Positions 47 to 20,529 of a DNA stretch of 22,358 nucleotides are shown piece after piece (within the stretch, counting starts at the first letter, position 1; each line of letters begins with the position of its first letter). Where the stretch lies: contig NW_014577264.1 of the NCBI RefSeq assembly GCF_000485595.1, positions 39,698 to 62,055 of the forward strand. The letters run 5' to 3'. The stretch is from Priapulus caudatus (Eukaryota > Priapulida > Priapulimorpha > Priapulimorphida > Priapulidae). Both the position numbers and the translations under genes were made by a program. A model generated the notes under the pieces. It was not told the origin of the DNA. It made no database searches and saw nothing but the letters and a program-made list of their open reading frames with translations.

Positions 47-722
47 CGTAGAATAATTGACAGACAAACAGTGAAGTAATTCGTAACCCTGGCCTAGATG
101 TAATAACTTCTAAAGAGAGTATGAAGTCACTCGCGACCGTATGCCGGTGAAGGTTGGTGGTCAAAGAATCATATCTAAATATTAACCTCAATACAGGCTT
201 AAGGGTCGTGACTGCTTTCTTGTTGAATGAGCCAACTGACATTTACGCTGAGTAGCCGACCCTGATATATTCAATAGTCACACTTGTTAGCCTTCTTACG
301 GATTCACTCGAATGCGTGTGTGGAAATGAAAACAATAATTATATAACAGTACTGAACGATGGGAACGATGGGACGACGAGATAACAAGATGGGACGATGA
401 TCAAAATGTTTGTTGGTATGTAAGTCGATCAATACTCACTTAAATTTAATAACCATGGATAATGTTATCCTTCTCATTGTTATTGATCATCCACAAAGAT
501 ATTTTGGAGGTGAAGTTTGTTTAGTGGGTTTTACAGAGCTTCTAAAAAACGTGTCCCATCTTACCCAGTTCTCTCCTACGACGGCGTGCACTAATCATAG
601 ACGAGAACTACTACACTACAGTGTAGTACCTACATGATTATTATATAAACTCGTGAGACAGCGCTATTTTAGAACGCAGATAAAACTTCTCTGCCATTTA
701 TGAAAAACAAAATAGCTGGTGA
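45..722. other. No supported gene; one short perfect palindrome
   Basis: A plus-strand open frame of 75 codons (410-637) has no recognisable domain and no convincing splice borders. Positions 609-628 form a 9-bp perfect inverted repeat with a 2-base centre (TACTACACT / AGTGTAGTA). GATGGGACGA is repeated loosely around 359-400. If the minus-strand exons at 723-1120 are real, this stretch would be their 3' side. Confidence 0.5.
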
Positions 723-865
723 TCATTTGGAGGAGTAACACCAGGTAGAATCCATGAACAGTTTCACAGAGGTTAGTGCAATCAATGTTCTTAATAGCTG
801 CTCAGGCATCTGTGAACCAGCGCGTAAGCGCACATCCCCAAACATAGACAGCCCACGTCCATGAA
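723..865 (-). CDS. Candidate terminal exon, protein of unknown function
   Basis: On the minus strand a CATTTTAG acceptor is followed by an open frame of about 47 codons ending in TGA at 723-725. The acceptor continues the phase left by the exon at 905-1120 (phase 1, codon C|TT). The residues look protein-like and include LRAGSQMPEQLLRTLIALTS, an amphipathic helix pattern. I recognise no family. If the intron 866-904 were not removed, translation would stop eight codons after the donor. An alternative is that a donor before the TGA leads to further exons. The call rests on splice logic and composition only. Confidence 0.38.
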
Positions 866-904
866 CTAAAATGAATTGTTAAAAAAAAGTCGGCCAATAC
901 TCAC
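866..904 (-). other. Putative 39-nt intron
   Basis: Read on the minus strand it begins GTGAGT, has an eight-T tract and a TTAAC branch-like word, and ends ATTTTAG. Removing it joins two open frames in phase. At 39 nt it is shorter than most animal introns, so it is either a mini-intron or a coincidence. Confidence 0.35.
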
Positions 905-1120
905 GCATACCATGCCTCGCAGCGACACCCGCCCCTGTTTGAGCTTTTAAGATCGTTAAGAAAACAGTATACAGTAGGTAATCCGCTTGTGAGAGGTCAC
1001 GTCTAACTACACAGGGTGTATATAGTCTACTTAGAAAGTCAACTATGGCTGGTGATGAGAAATCATGGGCAGACAGTAATATATGCCACACATCAGTATT
1101 CGTGGCGCGAATCGCTACGC
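905..1120 (-). CDS. Candidate internal exon, protein of unknown function
   Basis: 216 bp on the minus strand between a TTCGATTAG acceptor (1121-1129) and a GTGAGT donor (899-904). The length is a multiple of three with phase 1 at both ends. The translation is about 72 residues without a stop and includes LSAHDFSSPAIVDFLSRLYT followed by a second hydrophobic helix-like stretch (YLLYTVFLTILKA). It has no signal peptide, cysteine pattern or known motif. The upstream candidate exon (1936-2110) ends in phase 1 and joins as G|GC, a glycine. I cannot name the family. The chance of an open stretch this long arising in background DNA is low but not negligible. Confidence 0.42.
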
Positions 1121-1329
1121 CTAATCGAATATTATACAGTTAACAATAAAATGTCTGCATGAATTTACTAAATCTTACTAAATAAAATATCCCGACACGT
1201 AACACGTTCATACACGGACAAGCGCATATAACATGACACTAACACACTGATAGTAAACAAACGGTAGTAAGTAGTATGTAAGTAAGCAATGTACATAATA
1301 TAGGCCTATATATTATAAACATATATTAT

Positions 1330-1451
1330 ATATATGCGTGCGCGTGTGCTTGATACGTAAACGTGAGTGTGGCGTCAGGGGTGCCGTGTGTTTATTGTGT
1401 GGTGCTGTTTATTAGTCAATGTGTGTGTGTTATTGTGTGTGTGTGAGTGTG

Positions 1452-1526
<75 letters not shown>

Positions 1527-1690
1527 GGTGTGTGTGTGTGCGTCGCGCGCGTGAGTCGGTGTGCCGTGTGCGGGTGTTGCTGTCTAATGGTGGTGTGTGT
1601 GTTTTTGTGTGCGTTGCGTGCGTGGTGGCGGTGCGCGCGCGCGTGCATTTGTGTGATATTGTACGTGCGCGGCGCTGTGTCGTGTGCGCC
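1330..1690. repeat. TG-rich simple repeat with a 71-bp pure TG core
   Basis: A pure TG run spans about 1453-1523, flanked by degenerate TG/CG-rich sequence. The alternating purine/pyrimidine composition leaves several long stop-free frames on both strands. These are artefacts of composition, not genes. It lies in what would be the intron between the candidate exons at 1936 and 1120. Confidence 0.95.
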
Positions 1691-1935
1691 ATATATAACT
1701 ATATATTACACTATAGTTACTATAGTATTGTATTATTATTCAGCCAACGCAACTACATATCATCGGCATGCCACAAATATACAGCCAAATGTATAAATGG
1801 CGCATACCAATCTTCCTTTGTTGGCGATACCACTACCCTAAAACTTCTTCAGTAAAAATCTTTCGTGATTTAGATTACTGGCGCATTCGTATAGTCAAAC
1901 ATTAACATAATAACCAGTAAAACAGAAATATTCAC

Positions 1936-2110
1936 CTCGTCTTGACCGCTGATATCCAATGTCGTTTCGCCTGTCACAAAAGTCGTCGATATAAATCAGC
2001 TCGTCCTTATACCGCCTGTTCGTTGTCTGCGCGCCGTTTCTCCACGAGTAACGCAAACTCGCGTCGGTGTGGTTCACAAGCCGCTCCCAGCGACCTTTTA
2101 TAGCTAGCCT
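1936..2110 (-). CDS. Candidate upstream exon of the unknown gene, or untranslated first exon
   Basis: Minus-strand open frame from just after a TGA (2111-2113) to a GAG|GTGAAT donor at 1935. It ends in phase 1, the phase required by the exon at 905-1120. No ATG lies in frame, so it is either an internal exon or an untranslated first exon driven by the TATA box at 2094-2102. The segment is richer in CpG than its surroundings, which favours a promoter or first exon. The encoded stretch includes YKDELIYIDDFCDRR and matches nothing I know. Its size and role are uncertain. Confidence 0.3.
2094..2102 (-). promoter_or_regulatory. TATA-box-like core promoter motif
   Basis: TATAAAAGG on the minus strand in a CpG-rich neighbourhood. 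An inverted CCAAT-type word (CCAATGAA) and a CRE-like TTACGTGA lie upstream (higher coordinates). Transcription would start near 2065-2075 and run toward the candidate exons. The same bases can also be read as open frame, so the promoter and coding readings compete. Confidence 0.4.
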
Positions 2111-2397
2111 TCATTGGCGTCTTTTGCACTTGGCTGGAGTATGCGCGTTCCACGCCACACCTTGAACACTCCCGCCTACTCAGTCACGTAAGCCAAGGAT
2201 TGCCCAATGCGGCTATGAGTACAACCGGCCGTAACGCTTACAGTGCCTTCATCAACATCACACGTTCTGTCTTTGAACAGCAAATAACTGCGCGAGGAAT
2301 GCACCTGTATTGTTTGTTTGTTTGTATAGTCGTTTTGGCCACAACACCAAGGTTACTATGACTGTCTAAAGAAAAAAATGAATGGACACAGACAAAT

Positions 2398-2530
2398 TCG
2401 CAGGGACACGCTCATGCACGCACGAACGGAAGCACGTACACACACACGGACGCACGGACGCACGCACGCACGCACGCACACGCACACACATACACACACA
2501 TGCGCACGCACACATACACACACAAGCACG
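2398..2530. repeat. CA / ACGC simple-repeat tract
   Basis: Mixed ACAC and ACGC units; the clearest ACGC block is about 2455-2480. It is followed by an A/T-rich TATTTATT tract. Open frames here are compositional artefacts. Confidence 0.93.
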
Positions 2531-2539
2531 CATATTTAT

Positions 2540-3650
2540 TTATGTATTTATTTATTTATACTATTATTTAAGTTTAAATAATACATGTGTTATTAATTTC
2601 GTTATTCCGTTTGAAATGCAATCTAAATTATACGTATTGGTGACCTTCTGACAAGATTATGATATTTATTACTTCAGACTTCTCACTTCTTCTTTAAAAT
2701 CTAATGTGTGGCAAAAACATATTTATTGCGCAAATCGATGCTATGTCAAAAATCCCCAATACTGGAAACAGTAGGTCATTGGTGCAAGTAGCTATAGACA
2801 ATCGCTAATTCAACTAAAACAGATGCATGCAGCAAAATTAATTGACGGGATTAAGATTACATAGAAGACGAATGATTATTTGAACGTTGACGGACTCATG
2901 ATACGTACGTAGATGTATATAGATTAATTTTATTTGTACGTCGCGCTTGAAGCCGTACAGTCAGCACACTCTGAGACTCTGACAGAACAATTCTTGACGT
3001 AGAATCCTAGAATTATATACTTCCGCGACCACTTATAGATCTGTGAACGAGATGATCGCATGTCGAACGTAGCCCTCGATTCGCGCATCGAAATAGTTTT
3101 AGATCATCGTGCATGCGTCGGGAAATGTTTAAAGGAACTGGGAAAATGTATTGATGCAGATATATTTTGAAATAAAACCCTAAAACAGACAGAAATTCGA
3201 CCAGGTAATTCATATCACTGTAACGATGATTTGCGAAAATGACGTGCACTAACCTGTACGTATATGATGAAGATATTATTATAGTAAAAACGTTATGATT
3301 AAAATTTGCTCGCTGTCCATTGAAATATAGTAGTTTCTAACGTTTTACTATAGTATGAACTGAGCACGGGTAGACAAGCGCACGTAATTGCTCAATGAAG
3401 TTGTGAGCAAGATGTACGGTAGCGGTGTTCAATTTCGTTCCGAGATAAACGAGAACGTTTTTCAAAAAAACTAACTAACCGTGAGGCATTGGGACGCGAT
3501 GTACACGCAAGCAAAGAGCTTATAATGATAAGAGGTGACACTCGCCAGAAATAGTGTAATTGCCTCAACAGTGCTGCCGCACTGCGGCCGTCTTGATAGG
3601 CTACTTGCAGCGATCATGGCTGCTGCTAATTAAGAAGACAAAGCGAAATG
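2540..3650. other. About 1.1 kb with no supported feature
   Basis: A/T-rich intergenic or intronic sequence. A minus-strand open frame at 3013-3249 and a plus-strand one at 3560-3808 show no domain, no convincing splice borders and no start context. Confidence 0.5.
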
Positions 3651-8052: not shown

Positions 8053-8900
8053 GCAACTTTAGCTCCACTTTAAAGCAAACATTTAAAAGAAAGGCTCATT
8101 CGGTGCACTGCTTGCACCATCAAAAATGCTGACTGATTTGTTAAAGCAAGTAGAAAATAGGTTTTAAGCATTTCAATTCATGGCTGGATAACTAGCAGCT
8201 CGATTCCAGCAGATCTGATTGAAGATGTGTATACTCATGTTGGTGTTTCAGCATTATAGAGTCATGCCCGTTGCACCCTACTACATGAAGCAACCCAGTT
8301 TTCTATACGTACGATGCAAGATGTGTTGTTTTTTTCAGACATGAAACGCAAAAGTTGATTAAAGAACCTGTTTAAGACCTTGCCGAAAAGCTTGGTCAAT
8401 TATGCACGAATAAAAGAAAAATGCAATTAAAAATTACGCTGTTCATAAATTTTATTGAGTAAAGATGTGAGGCAAGTGTAAGGGATTAGTGTGTTAACAT
8501 ATATAGGAGTGAAGACAATATTAATGATTAATTTGAATTTGTAGGGCACTAAGACCTATATCCCGATTAGGGTAATTTGAGGACGTATAATTTCCACGTG
8601 TAATTTGAGGAAATTGTTTGTACACAAATGCATAATTTTTTTGGTAAAGGGAGAATGATCCAACCCGCGACTTGTTTTTAATATATTTTAACATGTTCAA
8701 TTTTAAGTGAAAAGTACAAAAAGTATTGCGTTTTATTGTTATTAAAAAGCCATAATTGATTTAATAAAAAATAGCAAGCCAAGATTGTCTTAGGGTAGGC
8801 CTACTTTACTGGTTACAGTTTTTATCTCGACTTCAACGACGCTCCGTGTCCAAGCGAACAATCCAGATGAGAGACCGGATACCAGAGAAGCGTCGCCTGA
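8053..8900. other. No supported gene
   Basis: A/T-rich. Around 8180-8340 the plus strand has short open pieces (for example TSSSIPADLIEDVYTHVGVS) broken by stops. They could be very old coding debris, but I match them to nothing. The stretch rises in GC from about 8830 toward the palindromes at 8945. Confidence 0.4.
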
Positions 8901-9261: not shown

Positions 9262-9789
9262 GTGCACGTACACGTGCGTGCGTGTGTGCGTGCGTGCGTG
9301 TGCACTGTGCACGTACACGTGCGTGCATGCGTGCGTGCGTGGGCACGTACACGTGCGTGCGTGCGTGCATGCGTGCGTGTGTGCGTGCGCGTGCGTGCGT
9401 GGGCACGTACACGTGCGTGCATGCGTGCGTGCGTGTGCACGTAAACGTGCGTGCGTGCATGAGTGTGCACGTGCCACGTGCGTGCGTGCGTGAGTGCGTG
9501 TGCACGTACACGTGCGTGCATGAGTGTGTGTGTGCACGTACACGTGCGTGCATGCGTCCGTGTGTGTGCACGTGCACGTGCGTGCGCGTGTGTGCGCGCG
9601 TGTGCAGGTACACGTTCGTGCGTGCGCAGGTACACGTGTGTACATGTGTGCAGGTACACGTGCGTGCGTGCATGCATGTGCACGTAGACGTGTGTGCGTG
9701 CGTGCGTGCGTGAGTGCGTGTGCACGTACACGTGCGTGCATGAGTGTGTGTGTGTGCACGTACACGTTCGTGCGTGCGTGCGTGTGCTT
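9262..9789. repeat. CACGTACACGTGCGTGC minisatellite
   Basis: About 530 bp of imperfect units around the core TGCACGTACACGTGCGTGC with variable TGCG spacers. Nearly every step alternates purine and pyrimidine, favouring Z-DNA, and CACGTG / ACGTG words (E-box, hypoxia-response core) recur throughout. Alternation removes stop codons, so long open frames appear on both strands; none is a gene. Confidence 0.95.
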
Positions 9790-9857: not shown

Positions 9858-9997
9858 ATGTTTATAAACATGAAACATCGCTATTGCATGAGAATCATTG
9901 AAAAACTGCTCCGCCAATCACGCGAAACGCAAGAGAAATTCAACGACGGCGAAATATACAGCTGTGTTACACACACGCAGCTAGGGCCTGCATAGCT

Positions 9998-10039
9998 CCC
10001 AAATCCCATTGGTTGATACAAATCACGTACCTCAAACTC
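9998..10039. repeat. 42-bp inverted repeat, left arm
   Basis: Pairs with 10307-10348 at 38 of 42 positions. It contains CCCATTGGTTGATACAAATC, a CCAAT-type word on the opposite strand. Confidence 0.9.
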
Positions 10040-10060
10040 CTGTTTTATGGTGCATTGTGA

Positions 10061-10082
10061 CCCTAACCCTAACCCTAACCCT
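10061..10082 (+). repeat. Interstitial telomeric repeat
   Basis: Three CCCTAA units plus CCCT, the complement of the TTAGGG telomere repeat used by most deuterostomes and many other animals. It lies inside the 42-bp inverted repeat pair. Confidence 0.9.
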
Positions 10083-10189
10083 ATAAACCAAAAAAAAATA
10101 TTTGTTGTTATTAAATTGGTGTAAATAAATCATGTAAATATGGATAAACATAGAAAAATACAGAAAACAGGAAAATAATGAAAAAACAG

Positions 10190-10254
10190 ATTGGATTCGA
10201 TCCAACGACATTTCAGCCGTGTCGTCTCTGCTCTAGGCGTTCAGCTATTGAGGC
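10190..10254 (-). repeat. tRNA-like SINE head or tRNA pseudogene
   Basis: On the minus strand the sequence reads GCCTCAATAGCTGAACGCCT, then AGAGC, an anticodon-arm-like stem (CGACA..TGTCG), and a full T arm: GTTGG, loop ATCGAAT, CCAAT. The A-box region and the B box (GGATCGAATCC, one change from consensus) are readable. The 3' acceptor strand does not pair with GCCTCAA and the sequence runs on into a T-rich tail, so it is not a working tRNA. A tRNA-derived SINE head transcribed by RNA polymerase III is the likeliest origin. Confidence 0.65.
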
Positions 10255-10306
10255 ATTGGGTTTTTGTGTTATGGATGTGCCTTGACAACACTGTGGCGTT
10301 ATTGAA

Positions 10307-10348
10307 GAGTTTGAGGCACATGATTTGTATCAACCAATGGGAATTCGG
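10307..10348. repeat. 42-bp inverted repeat, right arm
   Basis: Partner of 9998-10039. The 267 bp between the arms hold the telomeric tract and the tRNA-like unit. Confidence 0.9.
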
Positions 10349-10594
10349 AGGGCCACGTCACCGAGTAAACATCGTGAGTGGCATGCGGTGGGCGTAGTCA
10401 TTGAGGTAATTAGGGTTATTTAAGTTTTATTATAGTTTTTCGTGCACTTTTAAATGCCAAAAATTTTCAATGATGCTACGATGACATGCTTACCAGCAAA
10501 CACTGTGTCAAGTCAGTCACTGTTGCCCACGAATTCAGATTAGACGAATTCCCAGTGAATTCCCATATGTAATTCCCTGTTTTGTATTAAATTG

Positions 10595-10734: not shown

Positions 10735-10828
10735 GAATGGCTCGAAAATAGGTTGACTGGCGGGTTCCAAAATAGGACGTTCAACTCTCTCCCATAGGAG
10801 TAACAACTGTATACAATTTGAAACATGT
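10735..10828 (+). repeat. Older dispersed repeat, copy 1 left part, split by the foldback element
   Basis: GGCTCGAAAATAGG to AAACATGT matches 14640-14735 in the same orientation. Its continuation (GGGTCAAACGGTTCTTGAG, GTTATCGTTGACCGTAG) is found on the far side of the 10829-14418 element at 14423-14459. Confidence 0.85.
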
Positions 10829-11439
10829 TAGTGGGGCGGATGTGTCTGAGGTATGCACTTCTGGAAAGAAGCATGAAAATTTGCCCTAGGGGTTTTTTAA
10901 GTATGCCGATTTAAAAAAATTGCGGGAAACACGATGTCACTCCAACGTTTCCCGCCAAAAAATCCAAAATTGAAAATGGCCACCACAAAACACAGTTTTT
11001 CCCATAAATCAGCTGTAAGTGCCCCAAGTACCATGATCTCGTTCTCTATACATATGTTTTTGAGGTCAATGAACACCATAGAACAGGTATAGAACACATG
11101 TGATCTATCATAACATCTTCCTGCCAAAAAAATTAATTTAAAAGGGCTGCTACAAACGCATTTCTTTGCCATAAAATAGCTATACGTGCCACGATTACCA
11201 GGATCTAGGTATCTATACCTGTTTTTATGTCAAGGAACCCGATGGAAAACATGAAATATCCTAACATACATCTTCAAATGAAACAAATACAATATAAAAT
11301 GTTTTTAGGTCAAAGAACTCGGTAGAACACATGTGAAAAATTATGATGAAAACATAAAAATAATGCCATCTATACTTCAGTTCACAATTACTGTTACACT
11401 TTGGAAGGTACGCCTGCGCTCCTGCCAAAACGTCGTTCC
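10829..11439. repeat. Left arm of the foldback element (two tandem units)
   Basis: Reverse complement of 13633-14418 with scattered substitutions. It contains two related units of about 165-175 bp with the pattern CATAAA-T-AGCTGTA-GTGCC, then ACCATGATCT or ACCAGGATCT, then TATACATATG or similar, and TTTTGAGGTCAA. Confidence 0.9.
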
Positions 11440-11579
11440 ATCAGATTTCATAAAGACGCAGTGCATGCAATAGAAGGCATGCGCGTATGCCATGTAAAAG
11501 CAATCCAATGGTGTGTCATGTATTATGTTAAAACATTAAATGATCTCTGTCAGTATCTCATATGATCAGATTTGCTTGC

Positions 11580-13640
11580 TTATTCTTTGTTACACTGTCC
11601 TGAACAGAAACACAACTGTGTACACTCGAGATTTGCTTTGACACACTTGCATCTTTTTGTACAAGACTTTTTGCATCCACATTTTAACAGTTTCTGACTA
11701 GCTTTGGCTGCCTCTGGAAGAGTGGTCCAGCATGGAGTCCATGGGGAATTATCTGTCACTCTCTCCCAGCCCCATAAATCTAGCGATGAAACTTCAGGGT
11801 CTCCTATAAGTGACTGTCCCCAGATGTGCCCTGCCTGATAAACAGCCCTTTTCACATGCTGTTCCAGGGCATGCAACGTTGGAGGAATGTTTTCCATCTT
11901 ACGCTTCTGAGTGAACAACTGCTTCCTGGCTTCATTCACATGGCTGAGTGCTGATGTTCGCTGATATAAGAGAACAACATATCTCTCTATTTGCTCCATG
12001 TCGTCGGGGGATACCTGGCTTGGAGCATGGGATAATCGAGCAAAAATCGGTTTGCAATGAGGCATACTGCACCCAACAGCCCAAGCTGTTCTCTTTCCAA
12101 TTCCATGGAAGGCAGAAACAGTATCACATCCTGATATTGCGTGGAAGAATAGAAGACCCCATGATGCATCGTTGCCTAATTCAGCTGCAATTAGGTGGCA
12201 CTGAATGTAACGTAGTTTAGCACCATGACCAAATGCTATCAATATTTCCCAGTCCTGTAAAACACTTGACACTGCAATTGCGATAACCACCACATCAGTA
12301 TCTGTTGCATGTACATCAGTATCTGTTGCATATGCATCATCAGCTTGGTAAACCCATGATGGAATGAATGGGAAGCATGAAACAGGAGCCGTGTGTCTGC
12401 TTCTTCGTGAGTGCAGAACAAATCTGACAGGTAAGCTATGGGAGATGATACAGCATTCTGGCCATGTGTGGAGATCACTAGCTTCTGTGGAGGAGGTTGA
12501 AACTCTTGTATTGCATTGGCTAGAAGTTGGAGCAGTTGAACACAACAAAGGAAGTTCTTCCAGTTAACAGCAATCTTGGAGTTATTGTCCACCCTGAGAT
12601 GATTACCAGATCCACGGTTCTGTCGTGTTTGTGCCTTTAGGCTGTCCTCCCTGTAGACATCCCAGACAACATCTACGCGAACGGCGTGTAGCATTTGTTC
12701 TATATAAGGCAAGAACACCAATTGCGAATAGTTCTGGAATGTTTTGACAGAAAGTTGATACTTCTTTGGGTCAAGCATGTGCACAATGGCAGCACCGTCA
12801 ACAATTTTGACATCAACATTTGGAACAGTATTCCGGTTGTGGTACCAATGATTCCAAGCATTCCATCAAGTCAGATTTGCTTGTTTGGTGCATGATACCA
12901 TTTGATGCCAACGATGGAGGCCAATCATGATTTTCATGTGCGAAGAAGGCATCCATATCACTTTCTCTAGCTTGACACGATATATACAGCCGTGAGAAAA
13001 GATGAACATCATTGTGCAGGTTTTAAATCTTGGAAGTGGACTTCGCAGTTTTCTTTCCTGAACTAGAATTCAACAGAGGCAGATTGTTCCTATGTATGGT
13101 GTCATTGAATGCAGTGATATTGTCATTGATACGCTCCGCAACACATTTCTGGTACTGTGTTTTGCCTATGTCTTCTGCGGACCTTATAGTATCTACCACA
13201 CTATCGGACATTATCTGTTCATCTACCACACTTGGTATTTGTTCATGGTGGCGTTCTGTGTCCTTCGTTTGAATGTTTGTCATCATACTCTATTAATAGT
13301 CTAACGGTTTCTGGACCTGCCACCATCCACCGTCTCAGTGCTGCTTCATTTTCAGTGATACCTATTACGCCTCCATCTCCCTTCACCATTGCATTCAGCT
13401 GTTTATGAACTTGATCATGGGCTAGTGCTGAGAATTTGTGCATGGTCTACAGTGTCACAAAGTTGCCTTTGAGGAACTCTGCATGTGTGGTAGGGCAGGT
13501 AATCTCGAGGGCAAGTAGATCTCTCCATCATCCAGCGAGCATAGTGATAGTGGTCAAGAGCAAACATCCACGGAATAATCTTTCCAAGTGACTCCACATA
13601 GGCAACATATTTTTGTTCACGCTGTGATCTAAGGAACGAC
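11580..13640 (-). pseudogene. Degraded gene of a conserved unnamed invertebrate family (PIN/FEN1-like motifs plus CXC cysteine cluster)
   Basis: Minus-strand coding sequence runs from about 13640 to TAA at 11580-11582. In order I read: PWMFALDHYHYARW; FSALAHDQVHKQLNAMVKGD; GITENEAALRRWMVAGPE; HHEQIPSV; DVVWDVYREDSLKAQTRQNR; HEEADTRLLFHASH; ATDTDVVVIAIAVS; HAISGCDTVSAFHGIGKRTA; RTSALSHVNEARKQLF; HVKRAVYQAGHIWGQ; and a C-terminal C-x-C-x3-C-x3-C-x-C-x6-C-x3-C-x-C-x3-C cluster resembling the tesmin/TSO1 CXC DNA-binding motif. I know this block order from many uncharacterised multi-copy invertebrate proteins. The spaced Asp/Glu motifs suggest a PIN/FEN1-like nuclease fold (inference). Damage: frameshifts near 13520, 13275, 12830 and 12340, TAG at 13447-13449, TAA at 13023-13025. 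The N-terminal part is missing at the right-arm boundary. The longest intact piece is 322 codons (11580-12548). Confidence 0.82.
12292..12333 (-). repeat. 21-bp in-frame tandem duplication in the pseudogene
   Basis: Two 21-bp units differing by one base duplicate the residues ATDTDV, giving YATDTDVHATDTDVVV. It doubles the most nuclease-like acidic motif of the protein. Confidence 0.88.
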
Positions 13641-14418
13641 GTTTTGGCAGGCGTGCAGGCGTACCTTCCAAAGTGTAACAGAAATTATGAACTGAAGTAT
13701 AGATGGCATTATTTTTAAGTTTTCATCATAATTTTTAACGTGTGCTACCGAGTTCTTTGACCTAAAAACATTTTATATTGCATTTGTTTAATTTGAAGAT
13801 GTATGTTAGGATATTTTATGTTTTCCATCGGCTTCCTTGACATAAAAACAGATATAGATACCTAGATCCTGGTAATCATGTCACGTATAGCCATTTTATG
13901 GCAAAGACATATGCGTTTGTGGCAGCCATTTTGGATTAAATTTTTTTGGCGGGAAGATGTTATGATAGATCACATGTGTTCTATACCCATTCTATGGGGT
14001 TTATTGACCTCAAAAACATATGTATAGAGACCAAGATCATGGTACTTGGGGCACTTACAGCTGATTTATGGGCAAAACTGTGTTTTGTGGTGGCTATTTT
14101 GAATTTTAAACTTTTTGTCAGGAAGATACATCTTATGATATTTGACATGTTTTATTGCATTCTTTGACTTCAAAAACATAGGTATAGACCCCAAGATCAT
14201 GGTAATAGACTAATCGGGGCACTTACAGCTGATTTATGGGAAAAGTTAACATGTTTTCTGGCCGCCATTTTGAATTTTTGGGCGGGAACCGTTGGAGTGA
14301 CATCGTGTTTCCCCCAATTTTTGAAATCGACATACTCAAAAACCCCCTAGGGCAAATTTTCATGCTTCTTTCCAGATGTGCACACTTCAAGTAAAAAACG
14401 TCACATATCCGCCCTACT
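13633..14418. repeat. Right arm of the foldback element (three tandem units)
   Basis: Inverted partner of 10829-11439 but about 176 bp longer because it holds one more tandem unit (compare 14030-14110 with 14190-14275, both containing GGGGCACTTACAGCTGATTT). The inner end continues in frame into the pseudogene. Confidence 0.9.
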
Positions 14419-14422
14419 ATGT

Positions 14423-14639
14423 GGGTCAAACGGTTCTTGAGTTATCGTTGACCGTAGGCAGACACTGAAAAATGCATAGTGAAATTGCCAAAATCTACCT
14501 AATTTGCATAATAAAAAAAAATCAAAACCCCTGTGATATGTTTGGGGGGGGGGGCAGTCGTTATTCATTCACATACCAAAAATGAGCAAAATCCGTTGAC
14601 CTGAACTGAGTTATGGCCATTTCCATTTTTGCAAAAAGT
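14423..14639 (+). repeat. Older dispersed repeat, copy 1 right part and spacer
   Basis: GGGTCAAACGGTTCTTGAG and GTTATCGTTGACCGTAG continue the repeat split by the foldback insertion. The spacer then carries an 11-G run (14544-14554) and leads into copy 2. Confidence 0.75.
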
Positions 14640-14851
14640 GGGCGTGGCTCGAAAGTAGGTCAACTGGCGCGCTCCAAAATAGGACGTTCACATCTCTCCC
14701 ATAGGAGTAACAACTGTATGCAATTTCAAACATGTGGGTCAATCGGTTCTCAAGTTATCGTTGACCGTAGCCAAATGTTGACGGACGGACGGACGTACGA
14801 CGAACGACGCCCCATGGCAATAGCTCATCTTGACGATGTCAAAGCGAGCTA
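14640..14851 (+). repeat. Older dispersed repeat, copy 2, with GACG tail and terminal hairpin
   Basis: An uninterrupted copy giving the empty-site sequence AAACATGTGGGTCAATCGG. It ends with ACGGACGGACGGACG and the hairpin 14821-14834 / 14838-14851 (TAGCTCATCTTGAC, loop GAT; 12 of 14 pairs). Related ends lie at 21287-21350 in the opposite orientation. Confidence 0.8.
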
Positions 14852-19744: not shown

Positions 19745-19862
19745 ATACATACACATGCAACACATGAACACCTACGCACACATACGCTCACACACGCACG
19801 CACATACACACCCGCATACACGCATGCACACACGCACACATACACATACACATACACATACA

Positions 19863-19930
<68 letters not shown>

Positions 19931-19940
19931 CACACACACT
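19745..19940. repeat. CA / ACGC microsatellite with about 70 bp of pure ACGC
   Basis: CACA and ATACAC units lead into an uninterrupted ACGC run at about 19860-19929, then AC and ATAGAC units. It lies 400 bp downstream of the CRTC stop codon and could be in its 3' untranslated region. Confidence 0.95.
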
Positions 19941-20326: not shown

Positions 20327-20529
20327 CTACAAACCATCGAGCCGAAAGGAGTCGTCACATGCGGAGTCTGCCACCAGGTCAGGGTCGGCCAGCATCTGCA
20401 GTCCATCAATGTCGAGTGGGTCAAGGCCATCCTTGAGGGCTTCATCAGATGGAAAGAAGTCCGTGTCAAATCCAGCCATCGCATTTCCAATGTCTCGCAC
20501 TAGGTCCTGCCGTAGGCCCTCGTCTGCTC
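20327..20529 (-). CDS. CRTC: CREB-regulated transcription coactivator, terminal exon
   Basis: CRTC (TORC) proteins bind the bZIP domain of CREB in the nucleus and activate cAMP- and calcium-responsive genes. In the cytoplasm they are held phosphorylated by SIK/AMPK kinases. This exon encodes the extreme C-terminus, part of the transactivation domain: FDTDFFPSDEALKDGLDPLD, then LDIDGLQMLADPDLVADSAC and a DDSFRLDGL end before TAG (20327-20329). Vertebrate CRTC1 ends with the same order: acidic F/D stretch, LDGL-ML-DPD, then a D-F-MDRL tail. The exon starts after GATCGTAG (acceptor at 20530-20531) with a TTACTGATT branch-like word upstream. The intron phase is 1, and a preceding G would give glycine. 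The first 30 or so residues align loosely. No other CRTC exon is visible up to the window end. CRTC identity is well supported; which paralogue cannot be told. Confidence 0.88.

Follow-up and report, generated by a model that had tools for sequence, protein, structure and literature searches.

Two long inverted arms enclosing a degraded gene raise the question of whether that gene belongs to a mobile element or was captured by one, and of what kind of element this is. The locus was analysed within a window of 22,358 nucleotides, meaning the whole stretch of DNA considered here. The window comes from an animal genome, since it also contains coding sequence for the C-terminus of a CRTC/TORC protein (20330–20512, minus strand; Pfam TORC_C, E 4.5e-15), and the element lies about 6 kb downstream of this sequence. 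Genes of the kind found between the arms are presumably often listed as uncharacterised invertebrate genes.

Arms, ends and target site

The element spans 3,591 bp, from 10829 to 14419, and its termini are TAGTRGGGCGGAT. Its inverted arms, put at 610 and 786 bp in the initial annotation, were borne out by self-comparison, with the lengths given in Table 1. Positions 10949–11439 pair in inverted orientation with 13633–14124 (91.9% over 494 columns, E 0.0), and positions 10847–11247 with 13990–14389 (74.9%); in a gapped global alignment the pairing extends to the ends of the element. This pairing is well beyond chance. Both arms contain internal repeats, spaced some 167–169 bp apart and 67–74% alike: in the left arm the unit recurs at a distance of about 169 bp (74% over 136 columns), and in the right arm at about 167 bp with one further copy that makes up most of the length difference between the arms.

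The only other inverted matches in a self-comparison of the whole window (E 1e-6) were a single 44-nt pair and pairs within simple-repeat tracts. The former makes up a small hairpin at 9996–10350, whose arms (9996–10039 and 10307–10350, 91%) enclose 267 bp and which holds a short CCCTAA run and, as judged by eye on the minus strand, a tRNA-like stretch. It is possibly a MITE or a tRNA-derived element; ARAGORN found no tRNA anywhere in the window. Long simple repeats of the CGTG/CACG type lie at 9262–9784 and 19774–19939 and form mutually inverted pairs.

The element is inserted in one of two copies, about 90% identical, of a host repeat of 129 bp. The interrupted copy comprises 10738–10828 and 14420–14460, the element-free sister copy lies at 14645–14773, and without the element the two are separated by 313 bp. 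When the flanks were joined, with the element omitted and a single TGT retained, they aligned over 129 bp without a gap to the downstream sister copy and its empty site, at 89.9%, so that the target duplication flanking the element on both sides is TGT, of 3 bp. Reading the duplication in this way gives the element symmetric starts, TAGTGGGGCGGAT on the left and TAGTAGGGCGGAT (reverse complement) on the right; the left junction passes from AAACATGT into TAGTGGGGCGGAT, and the right junction from ATCCGCCCTACTA into TGTGGGTC. A target duplication had been claimed earlier, as ATGT. The duplication stands, but by the evidence of the empty site it is one base shorter: the 4-bp reading would need an extra base at the left end and would leave the ends asymmetric, and 4-bp readings also disagree in the second element described below. 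The end of the element, formerly placed at 14418, is correspondingly at 14419.

An inverted terminal motif, TAGTRGGG, is common to this element and to the second one. The window contains three copies of TAGTAGGG, two of them at the element ends; since 2 of 100 shuffles also reach three, it is the position of the motif and not its count that carries weight here. The third site (8276–8283, minus strand) lies outside the element, and because the arms match nothing there it is probably due to chance.

A shortened and decayed gene

Relatives of the gene were sought by a profile scan of genome contigs, with a query alignment made up of a piece from the window and two further rows. The scan matched 54 stretches, two of them encoding a relative. 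One of these, L001, is a contig of 6,512 bp deposited as part of a Planctomycetota MAG. Its open frame covers 1,466 amino acids and runs off the contig at the N-terminal side, so that the protein has at least 1,466 residues. A transposase-like region, FEN/XPG-like acidic motifs and a CXC-like tail follow one another in this same open frame. The motif TAGTRGGG is absent from the contig, which therefore displays neither end of its own element.

In tblastn comparisons the window is collinear with L001 over residues 1204–1443 (35%) and 1034–1195 (29%), linked at E 1e-40, and over residues 757–831 (28%) and 714–752 (31%), linked at E 8e-11, and no convincing match was obtained upstream of residue 714 or so. 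The window retains only residues 714–1443 or thereabouts, interrupted by frameshifts and stops, and the break in the gene coincides with the inner edge of the right arm. By this alignment the gene at the locus, initially described as one degraded gene, represents the C-terminal half of a protein that is much longer. The remnant measures some 2.05 kb (13627–11583, minus strand) and is split into five segments that differ in frame and are interrupted by two in-frame stops, as befits the degraded gene first reported at the centre of the element.

Table 1 Coordinates of the element, its target site and the pieces of its gene (L001, uninterrupted relative)
Feature	Position in window	Strand	Basis or remark
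Left TGT copy of target duplication	10826–10828	.	Empty site in sister copy, gapless 129-bp alignment
Left inverted arm, 611 bp, starts TAGTGGGGCGGATG	10829–11439	+	Self-comparison, global alignment
Stop codon of C-terminal piece	11580–11582	-	
C-terminal piece, 242 aa, open; DTD motif, GCDTVSAFHGIGK motif, cysteine-rich CXC-like tail	11583–12308	-	tblastn against L001
21-bp tandem duplication at frame break between the two nuclease-like pieces	12292–12333	-	
163-aa piece in other frame; VDGAAIVHML, VWDVYREDSLK and CTHEEADTR motifs	12332–12820	-	Matches L001 1034–1195
Linker piece, frame 0, one in-frame stop	12821–13262	-	Read-through blastp, collinear with L001
End of transposase-like region, HDQVHKQLNAMVKGDGG	13264–13446	-	Non-glutamate at position aligned with L001 E799
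First surviving piece, PWMFALDHYHYARW	13523–13627	-	Aligned around L001 D745
Right inverted arm, 787 bp, starts (reverse complement) TAGTAGGGCGGATATG	13633–14419	-	Self-comparison, global alignment
Right TGT copy of target duplication	14420–14422	.	Gapless alignment of joined flanks
Element-free sister copy of target	14645–14773	+	Empty site ACATGTGGGTC at 14730

The transposase-like region of L001 is matched by Pfam DUF6589 at residues 559–760, below the curated cut-off (E 0.003 for the whole protein; 2.9e-4 when the segment was searched as one of nine pieces). Residues D552, D745 and E799, picked by eye, are a candidate catalytic triad, and the first two sit in or beside the weakly matching region. 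Of these three residues of L001, the first lies in a stretch that is missing from the window, the second is conserved there, and the third is replaced by a residue other than glutamate.

The region at 1035–1330 of L001 is likely to be a nuclease. Its acidic motifs (FDAMAV at 1035, PDRYF at 1079, EEAD at 1182, PDTD at 1207 and GCD...GKGK at 1264) stand in the order of those in FEN1/XPG enzymes, an order that is also visible in the FEN sequences used. Alignment of L001 with human FEN1 by hhalign brought EEAD, PDTD and GCD into register with 'EAE', 'EDMD' and 'GSDY...GIGPK' (P 0.052, one sequence); when a core was aligned with six FEN sequences, P was 0.28 and the 47 aligned columns covered the last motif only. 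A motif pattern written after viewing both sides is shared by four of the six FEN sequences and by L001, though not by the window's own piece, and none of 20,000 shuffles of L001 951–1400 complied with it, a count that applies to a pattern composed post hoc. Up to E 10, no piece matched Pfam XPG/FEN. AlphaFold modelled the nuclease region poorly from a five-row alignment (mean pLDDT 43.5), and with this low-confidence model Foldseek returned no match at E ≤ 0.001 and 273 matches up to E 10, with unrelated folds among the matches listed, as expected for such a model; the model of the transposase region, from three rows, was poor as well (mean pLDDT 41.4). It is the occurrence of the motifs in FEN order, set against weak hhalign scores, no match to Pfam XPG and poor models, that leads us to grade the nuclease as likely.

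For the two longest gene ORFs of the window, Pfam gave no family up to E 10. L001 gave three matches within the same limit; there was no helicase and no CACTA transposase among them, in a protein whose N-terminal portion lies beyond the contig end. The CXC-type tail was weakly matched by Pfam TCR in L001 (E 1.1) and in the second relative, L002 (E 0.07), and among the pieces of L001 and the window a match to preSET_CXC (E 1.7, below cut-off) was not counted as chance. Other sub-cut-off matches of these pieces, to a Tc-complex binding domain (E 0.012/0.079), ParcG (0.069) and DUF237 (0.13), were taken as chance. Rfam returned nothing at gathering score, NCBIfam nothing, and PHROGs a single match at E 0.081. 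Searches of the PDB by sequence yielded three matches for the window ORF, one for the L001 protein and four for the A4 profile (best E 0.39, 1.6 and 0.13, respectively), all of them to unrelated molecules. By tblastn, phages were without a match to the 114-aa joined piece and plasmids without a match to the L001 protein; scans of viral contigs gave no confirmed relative, and a literature search on DUF6589 found no paper.

A second short element and the ownership of the gene

L002 is a contig of 3,431 bp filed under a Bathymodiolus brooksi gill symbiont, and a transposon-like element fills nearly all of it (86–3367 of 3431). The motif TAGTAGGG occurs at 86–93 and, inverted, at 3360–3367, its sole two matches in the contig, where 0.09 would be expected and where none of 200 dinucleotide shuffles had two. 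The element is flanked by TTA on either side, a 3-bp duplication, and the flanks disagree when extended to 4 bp; an inverted motif pair with equal 3-bp flanks did not arise in any of 2,000 mononucleotide shuffles. The gene part of L002 is spread over more than one frame and is related to residues 1176–1456 of L001 (linked E 3e-26) and 1104–1133 (E 0.007). The upstream half of L001 found no convincing match in L002, which therefore also looks like a shortened copy, and the DNA of L002 does not align significantly with the arms in the window (best E 0.21), which makes it a distant relative rather than a member of the same family of copies. We infer that both contigs are eukaryotic DNA inside the assemblies in which they are filed: L002 is apparently host DNA in a bacterial assembly, with bivalves as the presumed source group, and L001 may be a similar case.

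As L002 has the same gene half within the same ends, with a 3-bp duplication of its own, the gene most likely belongs to the transposon itself rather than being a passenger. This agrees with the original suggestion of a DNA transposon, with inverted ends and a short target duplication, as the element to which the gene family belongs. The same annotation had allowed that the gene might be a captured passenger; capture of a host gene by a foldback element of some other superfamily we consider very unlikely. Arms that resemble those of a foldback element with internal repeats would suit such a capture, as would a gene at the locus without the part that holds the first candidate catalytic residue of the transposase. 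L002, however, repeats the arrangement in DNA that differs from the arms, and two captures by elements with the same ends are improbable; moreover, the transposase-like region of L001 lies upstream in the same open frame.

A full element would carry a single long gene encoding a DDE-type transposase-like region, a FEN/XPG-like nuclease region and a cysteine-rich CXC tail, and in a full-length copy the complete gene would be expected between similar arms. Cleavage by the transposase would take place at the TAGTRGGG ends, with insertion at a staggered cut of 3 bp accounting for the TGT duplication, and the nuclease may help to process the ends. The window copy lacks the gene upstream of residue 714 or so, which brings a long arm up against the middle of the gene, and the remainder has degenerated through frameshifts and stops; after the deletion, movement would have been possible only through protein supplied in trans by an intact copy.

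The nuclease-like half is present, and the transposase half not seen, in both the window element and L002. Such elements might instead be stable derivatives, in which the nuclease and CXC half is under selection and the transposase is made elsewhere. Lesions in the window are biased five to one towards the upstream part (P 0.039, one-sided binomial), but a shift of the boundary that moves one frameshift turns this into four to two (P 0.14), and the lesion bias was given no weight. L002 was retrieved with the nuclease motifs, so its keeping that half is a selection effect, and the nuclease-like half is in any case frameshifted in the window and spread over more than one frame in L002. Selection of this kind is accordingly judged highly improbable. 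Very little probability likewise attaches to a lineage outside Academ whose short copies keep the nuclease-plus-CXC half within long repeat-built arms and use a transposase in trans, the nuclease half having a mobilisation role of its own.

Superfamily placement and comparison with known systems

The superfamily was assigned from domain order and the length of the target duplication, set against published descriptions of Academ. Because a transposase followed by a nuclease-like region, together with a 3-bp duplication, fits the description of AcademX, the element is probably a dead, non-autonomous, internally deleted cut-and-paste DNA transposon of Academ type, of the AcademX lineage. The nuclease of AcademX is labelled XPG. 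The earlier statement that the transposon is not assigned to a named superfamily is then probably wrong, as far as the available portions of those descriptions go. An unlikely alternative is that the TAGTRGGG ends, the 3-bp duplications and the DUF6589-like transposase mark a superfamily still without a name, which resembles Academ in its working but is not part of it: Academ membership depends on domain order and duplication length, and the nuclease and transposase assignments are statistically weak. Against it, a nuclease combined with a 3–4 bp duplication is the very description of AcademX in the available part of one account (PMC10045372), and Academ is, in the available part of another, common in the genomes of bivalves, the presumed source group of L002 (PMC10294476).

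If the AcademX placement holds, the picture of transposon diversity is unchanged and the find is largely an ordinary one. What it offers is a simple rule, TAGTRGGG plus a 3-bp duplication, for recognising genes of this kind as mobile-element genes; the rule is based on two elements, the window copy with its empty site and the second element in another contig.

EnSpm/CACTA elements have the ends 5'-CACTA...TAGTG-3'. The present elements resemble them in their short duplication and in having the letters CACTA, facing outward, at one element end. Their own ends, however, read 5'-TAGTR...YACTA-3', and this opposite orientation, seen in both elements, rules out CACTA membership; L001, too, is without a match to a CACTA transposase (Pfam, E 10). 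Foldback elements of the FB type have in common with the window element its long inverted arms with internal repeats, but foldback is an arm structure and not a family, whereas the lineage here is defined by its gene and its ends.

Within Academ, the accessible text of PMC10045372 gives duplications of 3–4 bp for AcademX and 9–10 bp for AcademH, a difference seemingly tied to whether a nuclease or a helicase is encoded. AcademH belongs to the same superfamily, and the resemblance of L001 to DUF6589 may reflect the superfamily's fungal side; AcademH differs in its SF2 helicase and 9–10 bp duplications, the duplications here being of 3 bp and L001 having no helicase match in Pfam up to E 10. In the available sections of a mollusc survey, Academ ranks third among DDE superfamilies, after TcMar and hAT, and is almost limited to bivalves, where curated Academ elements have a mean length of 5,565 bp (PMC10294476); arms together with a gene of some 4.4 kb would suit this mean. 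The available part of a further source includes a table of bivalve genomes with Academ-1 at 0.27 and 0.31 in two columns (PMC8905726). Compared by description with AcademX, the window copy differs in being truncated and broken and in having long arms made up partly of repeats of about 167 bp. The likeness lies in the 3-bp duplications, TGT in the window and TTA in L002, which fall within the 3–4 bp given there, in the terminal inverted repeats formed by inverted TAGTRGGG in both elements, and in the long protein of L001, transposase-like and then FEN/XPG-like.
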